From a virus: a stretch of DNA of 31,400 nucleotides. Positions 1,006-10,700 of the stretch are shown here, in pieces. The notes under the pieces are model-generated. The model had not been told where the DNA came from, did not search any database, and saw nothing but the letters and a program-made list of their open reading frames with translations. The stretch lies in the IMG/VR virus record IMGVR_UViG_3300021091_000264, positions 1 to 31,400 of that record; one strand, 5' to 3'. How positions within the stretch are numbered: the stretch's first letter is position 1; each line of letters opens with the position of its first letter. The position numbers and the translations under genes were made by a program.

Positions 1006-1200
1006 TTGGTAGTCGCTAGGCAGATAGCCTAGAAAGACGCCAAGATCATCAGATGCCGTTTGGTAGTTTCCATAGTCTGGTGTGATAAAAATTGAAACTA
1101 CTGTCCTGTAGGTGCCAAAACCTCTCCTCATTCCTAGTATACTATGGGTGAGTGAATGTAAAGATTGGGGACATAGGTAAAGTCCCCAACGCCTACCACA
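1006..1200 (+). ncRNA. candidate structured RNA between tRNA genes
   Basis: This 200-nt gap has no supportable + strand gene but dense complementarity. A long-range helix pairs 1007-1015 with 1190-1198 (8 of 9 pairs) and closes the whole region. Inside are hairpins 1016-1021/1027-1032 (6 bp, 5-nt loop), 1063-1070/1094-1101 (8 perfect bp), 1110-1113/1120-1123 (4 bp) and 1165-1172/1182-1189 (8 perfect bp, 9-nt loop). The first and last hairpins directly abut the closing helix with no unpaired base, as in coaxially stacked junctions. The ends match the ends of the gap between tRNA-Thr and tRNA-Leu, so tRNA processing would release it almost exactly. T4 has two stable RNAs of unknown function (RNA C and D) inside its tRNA cluster, a possible parallel. 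I do not recognise it as RNase P RNA, tmRNA, SRP or 6S RNA. Confidence 0.5.
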
Positions 1201-1775: not shown

Positions 1776-4700
1776 ATGGCTCTTACTAGACTTGATAATC
1801 TTTATTCAAGCAAGACTGGCAAATATCTATACGTATCTCCAGACGATTTCAATGCAACCGATGAATTAGATAATAGAGGAAATTCTCCTCTACGTCCTTT
1901 TAAGACAATTCAAAGAGCTTTTATTGAAGTAGCACGTTATTCGTATCTTCCTGGTAGAAATAACGATAGATTTGATCAATTCAGCATCATGCTGATGCCT
2001 GGTAATCACTATATTGATAACCGTCCTGGTTTGATTGAATCTTCTAATCCAGAGCAAAGATATCTAGATGGTGCTAACCTAATTGAACTTAATAGACAGG
2101 AAATCATTGATAGATCTGCTGCTGAGGTTGCTGTACAGCATCCAGATTTTTCATATCCTAATGATCCTGTAACTGGTTCTTACTCTAGATTTAAAGATGC
2201 TTATCGTCTAATTCAACTAAATCGTGCTGAAATTGTAACATCTGCATACGATCAAATTGCAATTTCCCATCCAACATTTGTAAATCCAGATCCAGCAAAA
2301 TGCCAGCGTGATATTGGATATTTTATTGATGCTCTATCGTTAGATATTGCACAAGCTGGTGGTAATGTTTATACTCGTAAATTTATTTTACAGTATTTTG
2401 ATAGTGCTGGTGCTCTCACTTCAAATGGTCTTCAAGGAGAGATTACAGAATCTATCACTGGTTTTAATAAAGCACGTGATGAAATGATCAAAGCGATGAC
2501 CAATCAGCTTACGATCAAAGATCTTTCGATAACTGCTGATCCTTTAACTGGATCAAATACTAACCCAAATTCTTGTGCAAACGTCGCCAGTGCAATTACA
2601 ACTCTTGCACTACAGGTATCAACTGTACTTACTGCAGGAAATCTGTCATCTCTACAAAACGAACAGATTTCTACTAATATTCCTGCTGGCGAACTAAAGT
2701 GCCGTAGAGATATTGGTTATATTATTGATGCAGTACAAGCAGATTTGAGAACAGGTGGTAATAGCAACATTATCTCTGCTACAAAAGCATATTTTGATAG
2801 AGATGGAAATCCAATCAACAATGGACTTGTAAACGAAACTGCAGAATCTATTACTGCTTTTAATAAAGCACGTGATATGATGAAGTTAGCTGTGACTAAT
2901 TCATTATATGGAAAAGATCTTACAATTGCTGTTGGTCCTGCAATTGCTGGAGCATCAACACCTACAATTACATATGGTTCTTCTGGTAATGTTGCAACAT
3001 GTGTTGATGTTCAAAATACCATCACTACATTAATTGCAATTCTTACTACATCTGTTGGTGCTGGAAATCTCACATCACTAGCTGCTGTTACAGCAACAGG
3101 AAATATTCCTGTATTTAACTTTAATAGAGCACTTCAGGAATGGCAAGACAATTCTATTCTAGATCTCAGCAATCCCGACAACGTTCTTTATAAATTTAAT
3201 GCAACTTCTGGTGGTTGTATTGTACCTAGAGGTTGTTCACTGATTGGTTATGATCTTCGTAGAACAATTATTCGTCCACTATATGTTCCTGATCCTGCAG
3301 ATGGAAATCAGGAAAGAACTTCTGTCTTTAATTTAACTGGCGGTTGCTATATCTGGCAGTTTACCATTAAAGATGGTGACCTCTCTTCAAATTCACCACT
3401 GTTTGATGCAACCGCTGGAGTTGGTAAAGTTTACTTCCAGAAGGGTAATACAACTAATTTAGCAGTTCCTGAATTCTCTCACCATAAGATCACCATCATG
3501 ACTTATGCTGATACAGAGGAACTCGATCGTTACTATGAAAAGGTTGGTAGATCTTTTGCACAATTCCAACCAACAATTGATGATGGAGATTTTGAAGCTC
3601 TTGTACAAGAAAATCGTATTGTTGGTCCTCTATCAGATACAAGAAGAATTGAAAGCATTAAAGTACAAGATTCCATTTCATTTACTGGTACTGCAGTAAA
3701 TAATAATGCTGCTATTACAAATGTTTCTAGTGTTGCGGGATTAAATCTTGGAGATGGCGTAAGAAGTAATAGTCCAAGTATTACAATTCCAACAAATACT
3801 GTAATTAATTCTATTGTAGGAACAACAGTAACTTTATCAAATCCTGTAACTGGATCTGGTAGTGTCTCTCTATCAGCAACAACTGGAAAAATTACTGCAA
3901 CTGTAACTACTAAGATTGATCATGGATATTTTGTTGATCAGTATATTGCAATTTTAAATTCTGGTTTAAATGAGCAAATAAATGGTACTTTTAAAGTATA
4001 TTCAATTGATCCAACAAATCCAAAAGTATTCCAATATCAGATTCAAGCAACTACTGCTGCTCTTGGATTGACCGATGGAACTACATATACTATTTCTAGT
4101 GGATTAGGAACAAATGCTGTAGCACAAGCAGAAATTGATAGCGTCGAATCTGCTTCTCCATATGTTTTCAACTGTTCAATTAGATCTACTTGGGGCATGT
4201 GTGGTGCCTGGGCAGATGGATCAAAAGCAACAGGATTTAAGTCCATGGTTGTTGCTCAGTACACGGGTGTTTCTCTACAGAAAGACGATAGAGCATTCAT
4301 TCGCTACGACAAACTAACTAATACTTGGAACCAAGCATCACTAACTGATGCTTTTGCTACTGTTCCTTATCACGCAAAAGGTGACGCTTATTGGAAAGAT
4401 GATTGGAGAAACTTCCATATCCGTGCTTCTGATGACGCATTCGTTCAGAACGTTTCTGTGTTTGCTGTAGGTTTCTTTGATCACTTCCTGATGGAGAGCG
4501 GTGGTGACATGTCAATCACCAACTCCAACTCTAACTTTGGCAATACTTCTCTACACGCTATTGGTTATAAAGGATTTGCTTTCAACCAAGATAAGGGTGG
4601 ATATATTACTGATATTATTCCTCCAAAAGTTATTCGTGAGAGTGTTCAAGATAAAATTCAATACTATACTCTTGATATTCAAGCATCAAATAGTGCAGCA

Positions 4701-7700
4701 AATAATACCAGACTTTACTTAGGTTCTGATGATCTAAATGATCCTGCTGATCGACCAGCAGTAACTGTTTCTGGATATAGAGTTGGATCAAGAACAAATG
4801 AAAGATTATATGTAAAACTTGATAACGGAACTTATTATTCAACTTTAGAACCAACAGGATTTTTACGTTACACTGCTTCTATTGATACTTTAAATCCATC
4901 TGGTATCTCTATCAATAATTTAGCACAAGATGCAGCAAACTTAATTAATTTAAATAAGCAATTCATTCAAAGCGAAGCATATAACTATATCATACAAAAA
5001 TATCCATATTTAACTACTAGAACTTCAATTAATATTGGCAAGTGTGAAAGAGATATTGGATACTTTGTTGATGCTGTAGTATCAGACTTGAGACTTAGTG
5101 GCAATATTAATACTATCCAAGCAGCAGAAGCATATTTTGTTGGGGGTGCTCTAACATATATTCCAAACGAACTTGGGGAAAGTTTAGAAACTTATGATTA
5201 TGTGAAGAATATGTCTATTGCTGCAATGAGGAATTGGGATTTCCTTATTCGCAACTGTACTATTACATCTGGATCCAACATTGTTGATGTAGGAAGCACT
5301 GCAGGATTGCTCATTGGAATGAGTGTTAAAGAGTATTCTGCTGCATCATTTAATGCAGATGGTCAACTTATCGGAACTCCATCACAAATTACAACTGCTA
5401 TTCCTGCAAATACTTACATTAGAAGAGTTCTTGATGCAAGTAGAATTGAACTTGGTGTTCTTGGTAGTAAGTTAACCACAGGATCAACTGTAAATGCTAG
5501 TGCATCCCGTCCAGGTAGTGCGTCTCTGTACTTTGAAATTACTGATGGATCATTCTCCACTACATTAGATCCGCAGAAAGATACTACTGTATCTACAGTA
5601 AATGCTGGATATCCAGAATGTGCTGCTATTGCAACTACAATCACTGGTTATTTCAATAATATTTCTGTTATTCTTAATCAAGGATTAACTCCTCTTGGTG
5701 GTAGAGAAGCTGATGCTCATAATTTAATTCTAGCAAATAAAGCATTAATCGCTGAAGTTGCTGTTGCTAGAATGTTAGCAAACTTCCCAGGTTTCTCTGT
5801 TCCAGGTGGTAATCAAGAATGTGTTGATGATATTATTGCTTCAATTGAAACAATCGCATTTAATGTTAAGTACGGCGGAAATAGCAGAGTTTATGATGCA
5901 GCTGCAATTTATGTAACTAATCCTAATTATCTTGATGGCGAAGAAACACAAGCAGTTTATGCTTATACTCAAGCAAGAGATATGATGATCCAAGCAATGC
6001 GTAATGAAGCAATTACGATTACTGGATCTACTAGAACTCAATTTACCGATTCTACTATTGTTGCTGATCCGCTCTCTCCTGCTTGTGCTGACATTGCTAA
6101 TACGATCACTACATTAACGAGTATTATTACTCAAGGTATTGGAACTTCTTCTACTAACGGTAATTTAACTGGCATTACAAGAACTGCTCCAGTTATTACT
6201 TCAGTAACTAGAGTTGAACCTGTTTTAGACCTTGCTAATCTTGCAAAAAGAGCAACTATTTTTACAATTAATACTGGTAGTGGCACAACAAATCCACATA
6301 ACTTTGAGACTGGTACACCTGTTAGATTGGTTCCTAGGGCAAAAGCAGGAAGAAATCCAGATAAAAGAGTTATCAGATTACCAATAGGATTTTCTACAAA
6401 TGAGAAGTACTATGTAATTGCTCCTGGTAGAGGTACAAAACCAGAAGACTATGCATCTACAACTGCATTTAATGGTTCTGCTCAAACTAAGTTGATGCTA
6501 GCATCAACAAAAGAAAATGCAGCTGCGGGTATTTACATCTATTCACCAGAGACAGATAGCGTTGATCCAAATATTGAAATTGAAATTCAGCAGTATGTTC
6601 TTGATGATGTATATGATCTTCATAAGTATACTTGCAATATTGCTGGAGCAGGAGAGATTGAAACAGATGTCGCACACATCTTTGATCTTCCAAATGCTTC
6701 TGTAACTCCACAAAAAGTATTTTTCCGCTTAGCAACAGATATCATTGGTTCTGATTTACCAGAAATTGCTGGCTTTGGAACTATTAATACTAGAACATAT
6801 TACTTTGCTCGTTATATTACTGCTAAGAAGTTTAGTATTCATAATAGTCATTTAGAGGCTATTGCTGGAACGAATGCAGTTTCATTTGTTCCTGCCAGTG
6901 GTCAAAACTTCTATGTCTTTGCAGACAAGAGAAGAAGTCCTATTAGATTTGATGCTAATTATAGTACAGCAACAAATACCAGTGGACTTTGGTATGTTCA
7001 GGTTAAAGACGAATCTACTGCAGGTCCAACATTTAGAGCAGATTCTATTTTAACAAGGTTCCACGATCCTATTGCTTATGGTCCTGGGTCTGGTAAAATT
7101 AGAACTCTTGATACATGGATTAATCGTGTAAGAGATGATAGAACCGAGGGTGATCGTGTCTATCGTCTAAGATATGTTATTCCATCATACTTAACTACTG
7201 TTAGGGATCCTCTCAATGGATTTGTTCTAAAAACAAGAACAGATGATAAGAGAAGATTAGTATCACAAAAGTTTATTTTGATTCCTATTGCTGGAGCTCC
7301 AGCAGTTGCTAGGTTTGATAACCCAGCACAACCAGGAGAAATTCTTGGATCCACACGAGCAGAATTTACTTCTGCGGGCATTAGTCCAACATATGATCCA
7401 TATCTAAGAGCAAAAGTTGTAGAAAGCACAAGAACTCAAAGTAGAATTGCATTCTCTATTCAATCTGCAAGAAAAGTAACAGTAAGCGGCAATCAAAGAT
7501 TAGAAATTGTAGCGTATGATCATACAATTACAGTTGATGCTCTGAAGAATGAAATTTTTACAATTGTAGAAATAAATGCACCTCAGGGAGGATCATTTGT
7601 AGTAAGTAATTCTACTGCATCTAGTGCAAACCGAGTTACTTGGACTGGAAATACTAACGGTTCTGGATTTATTCAAGGATACTTTAATGTAGGAACTAAG

Positions 7701-10700
7701 CATTACTTAGTATTGAAGAACACAACTGGATCTATTGCTTACAATAGACTAGTCAATACTAGATTTACGCAAGGTGCAGTATATGCAGATCTTCTTGCAA
7801 AACCAAATAGTATTGGAGATCCTGCAGGAAAAGATAAATCAAGCAGAAAAGATTATCTTTATAGAATAGAAGGTGCTAACGTTTATACTTTAGTTCCTGG
7901 GGATATTGTAACAGATGATCAATCTAATCAGTATCGTATTGAAAGTGTTGAAGATGTTGGAGAACTTCAAGATACTTTCTACATTTTTGATATTGATACA
8001 ATTCAAGAAAGAATTTCAGGACAGCAAGATGGAGTTTACTATCTAACTTGCTTGCGTGGTAATATTTCGCCATATCCTCAAGGTGCTGGTGTAGGTGAAA
8101 ACTTCCAAAACTTTAGGTTCTCGCAACCAATCTCGCAGTTGTATCCACAAAATTACAAGAATGATCCTGTTTGGTTCAAACAAATTAATCCAAACTACAA
8201 TGATGTTCCTGCAACAAAATCTGCTGCAGATAACTATATTCATGGATTGGTGACTGTTAATGATGTGAAGTTCAGTGAAACCAAAGAGATGGTCGAAGAT
8301 TTAGTTAGACAACCTGCTCTCTCTAGATTTACTTTTGTAAGTTCAGATACTCTTAGTAGCCCAACTTTAAATCCTGCTGGTGGATCTAATATTATTCAAG
8401 CACAAAATGGAAATGCTGCTTCTGGATCAGAAGATCGTCGTATTCCAATTTCTGGAGATTCTGCTTATCCACTAGAGCAAAAACTCTATGTAGAACTTCG
8501 TAGACCATCTATTGCTCGTTCTGGTAACCACACGTTTGAATATCTAGGTTTTGGTCCTGGTAACTACTCAACTGGTTTTCCATTGCGCCAAGAAGTTGTT
8601 CTTGAAGATGTTCAAGACTTCTATGCACAATCGAAGAGAGAAGATGGTGGCATCGTTTTCTACACTGGTCTAAACTCTAATGGTGATCTTTATATTGGTA
8701 ATCGTAAAGTTAATGCTATCACTGGTGAAGAAACATTTCTTGAGAGAGCAATTCTAGAAGAAAGTGCAGATGATAGTACTGATGACCTTGGTGGACTTGT
8801 AACCACATTTGATACTCCAGTAACCTTTAATAGTAGAATTACTGTAGAAGGAGATTCGGTCTTTAACAATCCTGTATCAATTGTTATGGATGCTACCGAG
8901 GGTCCCGCTCTCACAATTCCTAGCGTAATTGATCCAACTTCTGGACTTGATCAATCAATTAGCACTGCAAATACTGGATCTATTATCATTCATAGAAATA
9001 GAGTTGCTGCGGCTGTTTATGCAATCAATCCTCGTCAGATACTTGGAGACAACGGTCAACCATATACGCTAAGAACACATTATACTACAACACTGGGTCC
9101 AACAAACGTTTCACCTGATCAAAGCGCAACATTTAATGCTTCTCAAAATGTAAATTATGGTTCATCTGAAACTCCAAGATCTGGTGATATACTATTCAAA
9201 GGTGATGAAGTTGGACTTTCTGGATCTATTGGTTGGATATATGCTAACTATTATACAGAAATTGTAGCAGCAAATCTCGCAACTTTAACTAGTGATGGAG
9301 TGTACATTACTGTTAATCTTGCCCCTGGTATTACAAATTCTGCTATTAATATAAGTGCAAATTCTATTATTAGAATATCTGGATTTACAGCAAACCCAAA
9401 TCTAAATGGAAACTGGCAAGTTGTTTCTACTGGAACTCCTCTATTCTCACCATCTGGAACATCATTTAGATTCTTACCAACAGTTCCTCCAGCATCTGCT
9501 ACTACTTATACTTGGTCAACTGTAACTGGGGCAAAACTAGAAGTTTCAAGAGAAAAGTGGAAAGAGGTTGGTGTTGTTGGTGCTGAAACTCTCCGAACAA
9601 ATACCGAAATTTGGGGTGATTATAAACTTGGTATTAATACCCTTGCCAGGGCGACTGATAATGCATATCGCACAGCATTTATTGAGAGCGCAACTTCTCC
9701 TAGAGCAAATCTTGATGTAGTTGGAAACACATTTATTTCTGGTAAATCTACAGCAATCACAGTTTCTGGCGGTGCTCAATCTAAAGTTGTTTCTAATTTA
9801 GATAATGCTTTAATTGTAGGAGGAGATAGTGCAACTCCAAATAATGAAGCAGTCTTTAGAGTTTCTACAACTCCTGGTCCTTTAGGAAAAGGAAGAGTTG
9901 GAATTAATGCTTCTGTCGCTCAACTAACAACTGCTGCTACTGATGTTGTTGTTTTCGGAAGCACCAGTTTCAATGGAAACATGTTGCTTACTGGCACATT
10001 TACAACAAATATTGGTACTATTGACACTAATAGCACTACTTTAGATCTTGCAGCAACTCCAACAACAGTTAGATTTGCAGCTGCTGCGACTACTGTACAA
10101 ATTGGAAATGCTATCGGAACAACTGGTAGTCAGACTATTGACGTTGGAAATTTTGCATTAACTTCAAACGTTAAAATTGGTGATGCTGCACAAACAAGCA
10201 CTTTATTCATACACAGAAATTCTAGAAATGCACAAGTTGATATTGCTTCTGTAGATAATACAAATGCTGCATATGTTTGCAGCGTTATAATTGGTGGTGC
10301 TTTCTCTAATTCTTCTTCCGCAACATCAATCAAAACTAGAAATATTAATCTAGATGGAGATGTAAATGTTGGTTCTGGATTTACGGCAGGTTCTGGAACT
10401 GGTAAGTTATATTCATTAAATTCTAGATTTGAACTTCTTGCTGCAAGCGGTGGACCAGCAATTGTTAAATTTGCTACTACTGCTTCTGATCTTGAGATGG
10501 CATCTCAAGGTGGAACTACAACTATTAATAATGCTTTGCGAGTAAAAGCCAGAGCAGATTTTGATGGAGATATTAAACTTTCTGGTGGTCTAAATTCTGG
10601 TGGAGTTAGTGTAGAGAGGGGAGTTTTTGGAACAACTCCTGCTGCCCAAGCAGTTGGATCTTTACCATCTAATTTTAACCTAGATTTATACAGAAAAGTT

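Follow-up and report, generated by a model that had tools for sequence, protein, structure and literature searches.

The interval between tRNA-Thr and tRNA-Leu(tag) in the IMG/VR viral record IMGVR_UViG_3300021091_000264 carries three small RNA modules, M1, A and I, and comparison with homologues indicates that M1 and module I represent new RNA families. The 31.4 kb of this record (hereafter, the window) resemble T4-like cyanophages such as S-PM2, S-CAM1, S-CAM3 and S-RIM32 in the CpeT gene, the giant tail-fibre gene and the tRNA array. On the plus strand, ARAGORN placed tRNA-Thr(tgt) at 932–1005 (Rfam RF00005, 67 bits) and tRNA-Leu(tag), which closes the interval 1006–1203, at 1204–1287. The 3′ end of the CpeT gene (381–941) shares 10 bases with the start of tRNA-Thr, and a small ORF downstream of the interval (1310–1480) had no Pfam or PHROG match. 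Rfam at the gathering threshold found only tRNAs in the window and no ribozyme, riboswitch or other family, a permissive search of 900–1310 returned only a chance-level match to enod40 (E 1.9), and none of M1, module A and module I matches Rfam. Inspection by eye lent no support to a hammerhead, hairpin ribozyme, k-turn or attC reading. In the literature consulted on structured RNA in phage tRNA clusters, we found no report of any of the three modules.

The first-pass annotation had proposed a new structured RNA in this gap, and the proposal was borne out, with a different partition of the structure. The minimum-energy fold of the whole gap is −59.7 kcal/mol (z = −3.0 on the plus strand and −2.9 on the minus strand), and only one of 200 shuffled sequences folded equally well. 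Compensatory changes were present at the homologous loci for M1 and for one helix, P3, of module I. The two 8-bp hairpins (1063–1070/1094–1101 and 1165–1172/1182–1189) and the 6-bp hairpin (1016–1021/1027–1032) that had been pointed out were all confirmed, and they are distributed over three separate modules.

M1 is a hairpin of 38 bases at about 1006–1043 on the plus strand, identified by its fold, by covariation and by its covariance model R1 (67.2 bits), and it begins at the base next to the end of tRNA-Thr. The outer stem, UUGGU-(A)-GUC/GAC-GCCAA, pairs 1006–1014 with 1036–1043 and has a bulged A1011, whereas the inner stem, CUAGGC/GCCUAG, is the confirmed 6-bp hairpin and has a five-base loop, AGAUA; G1015 and the opposing AAA (1033–1035) form an internal loop between them. 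Folded alone, M1 reaches −17.0 kcal/mol (z −4.87). In an alignment of 43 distinct sequences, 95.8% of the cells were paired and eight of the 14 pairs showed double changes, amounting to 52 double-change cells against 10.3 in shuffled alignments (0 of 500 as high), and the slid controls collapsed to 1–17 cells. Some letters were fixed in the scan patterns, so that their constancy does not count as separate evidence; each of the two stems covaried in the scan that left that stem free. M1 is a conserved structured RNA, having compensatory changes beyond both the shuffled and the slid controls. Two positions often hold a U-G pair, which points to an RNA of the tRNA-sense strand.

A pattern scan found the inner core of M1 in 42 IMG/VR contigs and the outer-stem pattern in at least 119 IMG/VR stretches, the latter including some chance matches and the contigs, here as in the other counts, being partly redundant and fragmentary. 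In GTDB, the exact core matched once where about 0.9 matches were expected by chance according to our arithmetic, and by these counts the exact core belongs to viruses. The analysis revealed no host counterpart of any of the three modules, GTDB having been scanned for the exact M1 core. An archaeal GTDB match (L048, 24 bits) was at chance level, and matches in R12, Atu_ph07, Lak-A2 and a Streptomyces plasmid were short and attributable to chance, that of Lak-A2 being unsupported by R1. The named carriers are S-SZBM1, DSL-LC02, DSL-LC03, S-EIVl and S-B05, with a weaker match in B23; a 211-base query aligned with S-SZBM1 at 91% along the gap's initial 96 bases and with DSL-LC02 along the initial 39. 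M1 was not detected in S-PM2, S-CRM01, T4, S-CAM1, S-CAM3, S-RIM32 or S-H9-2. The phages that carry it include T4-like cyanophages, phages with a Phage_cap_E capsid, and phages with terminases like those of Sinorhizobium or Pelagibacter phages. Usually there is a single M1 in a record, and two records have two copies. Judged from these sequences, M1 is present in many unrelated aquatic viruses at about one copy per genome. One M1 contig, L069, also encodes a DUF2828/DUF7788 protein (4151–5614) and a class II tRNA synthetase of the D, K, N type (8783–10261).

The position of M1 relative to tRNAs is precise. A tRNA adjoins it within 3 nucleotides (nts) in 92 of the 108 copies found, the gap being 0 or −1 in 89 of the 108, and 13 tRNA species precede it exactly. 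In 11 copies the next tRNA follows within 10 nts, indicating that M1 can form a complete unit by itself. A second form retains the outer stem, UUGGUAGUC/GACGCCAA, and has a different tip around GAUUAA (for example, CUUAG-CGAUUAA-CUAAG); it occurs in L219 and about 30 other contigs and adjoins a tRNA exactly in 32 of 33 copies.

M1 is also located outside tRNA arrays. It lies upstream of the Phage_cap_E major capsid gene in S-EIVl-like phages and within a larger RNA that precedes a terminase gene, and in S-B05 and its relatives it forms the tip of P2 in a glnA-like leader that resembles the glutamine riboswitch (RF01739; 16.3 bits, cut-off 35). Such a leader is not present in the window. Sub-threshold leaders of the same kind, with M1 as the P2 tip, were seen just after promoter-like sequence in L157 (5983–6061) and also in L079, L123 and L148. 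In addition, a permuted tmRNA gene (L058, 721–919; RF04321, 68.5 bits) has an M1-like hairpin at 830–866 in its intervening segment, although this match is weaker (27 bits).

Module I occupies 1106–1200 on the plus strand and is predicted to form a three-way junction of P1 (1108–1114/1190–1196), P2 (1125–1155) and P3 (1165–1189), the last with a constant loop, AUAGGUAAA; its fold has a z of −2.56. A pattern taken from the 5′ half detected it in 31 IMG/VR contigs. Among 23 sequences, P3 had double changes in six of its eight pairs and one pair of P2 covaried; since the search pattern partly fixed the 5′ strands of P1 and P2, the covariation result is that of P3. By the compensatory changes in this one helix, module I qualifies as a conserved structured RNA. 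It is preceded by M1, by module A, by the second M1 form or by unrelated segments. An exact 34-base pattern from its 3′ end was found in no viral contig, and blastn of its consensus against the named phages gave no match.

Module A (1045–1101, plus strand) consists of two crossing helices, S1 (1047–1053/1076–1082) and S2 (1063–1070/1094–1101), and is therefore a probable H-type pseudoknot. Its core was found in 10 IMG/VR contigs, and it follows M1 in S-SZBM1, L015, L020, L038 and L040. S1 showed two double-change pairs among only five sequences, and 33 of 500 shuffles scored as high, so that covariation across these five homologues is no more than suggestive. In S-CAM1 and S-CAM3 only 3–4 nts separate tRNA-Thr from tRNA-Leu, and an inserted and shuffled set of modules is therefore the best reading of the gap; the interval in these marine relatives is consistent with insertion of M1, A and I as a cassette.

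Other structured RNAs share these arrays. The abiF RNA (RF03085) scored above the cut-off in seven of the 26 records searched, most records and the window being without it. Like M1, this RNA of about 37 nts is structured and lies beside tRNAs in cyanophage arrays, even in the same gap: abiF RNA (55.7 bits, cut-off 37) is accompanied by M1 and module A between tRNA-Pro and tRNA-Ala in S-SZBM1, and L040 has the three in one gap as well. Unlike M1, which directly follows a tRNA at its 3′ side, abiF RNA has another sequence and structure and precedes the tRNA, ending 4–7 nts before it in all eight cases compared (S-SZBM1, L015, L023, L040, L049, L101, L222 and S-CREM1). Copies were located in L001 (5242–5278), L015 (2895–2945), L023 (2874–2910), L040 (1093–1129), L049 (3779–3815), L101 (4850–4886), L222 (5766–5802) and L312 (1900–1936). 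It belongs to a known family of RNA antitoxins, the protein partner of which is known in bacteria; since S-SZBM1 and S-CREM1 yielded no Abi_2 protein, the RNA looks orphan there. The link of abiF RNA to the function of M1, A and I is one of association only. The leaders wcaG and manA are present in the same arrays too, and for S-CREM1, wcaG, manA and abiF were previously reported (PMC9964418). We also noted tRNA-like RNAs that lack annotation and possess acceptor, D-arm and T-arm in L151 (2521–2592), L195 (about 1821–1890), L001 (about 5109–5176), L045, L049 and L052, which by eye have an 'anticodon' arm of 3 bp that ends in a conserved GAYAA loop, and further ones capped by UUCG in L050 and L131.

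Comparison with other known RNAs gives partial likenesses. The stable species 1 and 2 RNAs of T4 (rnaC and rnaD) are likewise non-tRNA RNAs in a T4-like tRNA cluster, and the analogy drawn in the first-pass annotation is apt in kind; it does not extend to sequence and structure, as R1 and the module I model, R2, had no match in T4 (NC_000866) in a one-way comparison of the gap models against T4. Type III antitoxins (ToxI, CptI, antiQ; PMC5086642) and the phage pseudo-ToxI (PMC3475682) are small RNA pseudoknots, as module A probably is, but no match of the modules to a known antitoxin was seen, the M1 core was found once in the window with no tandem copies, and no adjacent toxin was identified there. 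The ornate RNAs GOLLD and ROOL are also phage-linked and structured and are known to lie near tRNAs, but they are several hundred nts long and had no Rfam match here.

What these RNAs do is considered in terms of release and action in trans. The three small RNAs would be co-transcribed with the tRNA array, cleavage at the 3′ end of tRNA-Thr would leave M1 with its exact 5′ end and not a base to spare, and the 3′ end of the cassette would come from RNase P acting at tRNA-Leu. Release by tRNA processing had been anticipated in the first-pass annotation, and it could take place, as the exact position of M1 at tRNA ends suggests. Once freed, the RNAs may act as antitoxin-style ligands or decoys on RNA-controlled defence nucleases of the host, as part of an array-borne set of small RNAs that would include the orphan abiF RNA. 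We put forward this reading, to which we assign a probability of about one in three, because abiF RNA is present in related arrays, because AbiF of Clostridioides difficile is neutralized by direct binding of an abiF-motif RNA (PMC12373285), and because phage PhiTE evades ToxIN by a mimic of the ToxIN RNA antitoxin (PMC3475682). The single copy, the constancy of M1 across phages with unrelated capsids and terminases, and the copies closely flanked by tRNAs on either side suggest a trans-acting unit, and the spread over unrelated phages favours a host partner. M1 may thus be part of a viral RNA toolkit against host defences. A wider version, that tRNA arrays also serve to deliver a shuffled collection of small anti-defence RNAs, each freed by tRNA processing and each directed at a different RNA-gated host nuclease, is doubtful; its members would be M1, A, I, orphan abiF RNA and the tRNA-like RNAs without a normal anticodon arm.

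Counting against a role in trans, M1 is also found in apparent mRNA leaders, and the wcaG and manA leaders indicate that RNAs of these arrays need not act in trans. An equally likely explanation is that the modules are cis elements of the primary transcript and are inactive once released, serving as an insulator of tRNA folding or processing, as 5′-end protection of the downstream RNA or as an antitermination-type element. Both the contact with tRNAs and the placement in 5′ leaders are in line with this, as are the occurrences by promoter-like sequence in the glutamine-riboswitch-like leader, upstream of the capsid gene and inside the permuted tmRNA, and the company of the wcaG and manA cis elements. 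However, there is usually one M1 per record despite the many tRNAs per array, no constant downstream gene was found across the M1 arrays, and in the 11 copies with a closely following tRNA nothing is left to be protected.

It is improbable that M1 acts as DNA, as a mobile or recombination hairpin of the integron attC type that shuffles tRNA cassettes. The modules do reassort beside tRNA ends, the short interval in S-CAM1 and S-CAM3 would fit, and GTTAGGC resembles an attC core. Nevertheless, G-U pairs are tolerated on one strand only, many M1 copies have GTTATGC instead, and the bulge and the internal loop are conserved.

The single 195-nt RNA of the first-pass annotation, with its 5′ and 3′ ends paired and its hairpins coaxially stacked in a multibranch junction, is very unlikely, and three independently occurring modules take its place. 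The closing helix (1007–1015/1190–1198) does exist, with eight of nine pairs and a T1013–C1192 mismatch, and it is favoured by the single-sequence fold (pair probability about 0.9); but 1007–1015 is the 5′ strand of M1 itself and 1190–1198 the 3′ strand of P1 of module I, two helices conserved across homologues. Dozens of contigs have one of M1 and module I and lack the other, in both combinations, and each local helix is found again in places without the other module. For this reason the closing helix was rejected as a conserved unit. The modular fold without it has a computed energy of −58.8 kcal/mol, only 0.9 worse with the pseudoknot uncounted, and by these models the energies do not decide between the closed and the modular fold.

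Aquatic phages carry M1 and module I, which have been overlooked since annotation stops at the tRNAs. Should the RNAs be set free and work in trans, the tRNA arrays of phages would be more than helpers of translation. S-SZBM1, which has M1, module A and abiF RNA, and S-CREM1, which has abiF RNA, both infect the laboratory strain Synechococcus CB0101, and, if the proposal is true, the role of non-tRNA RNAs in tRNA clusters, such as RNAs C and D of T4, would become testable in culturable phages.
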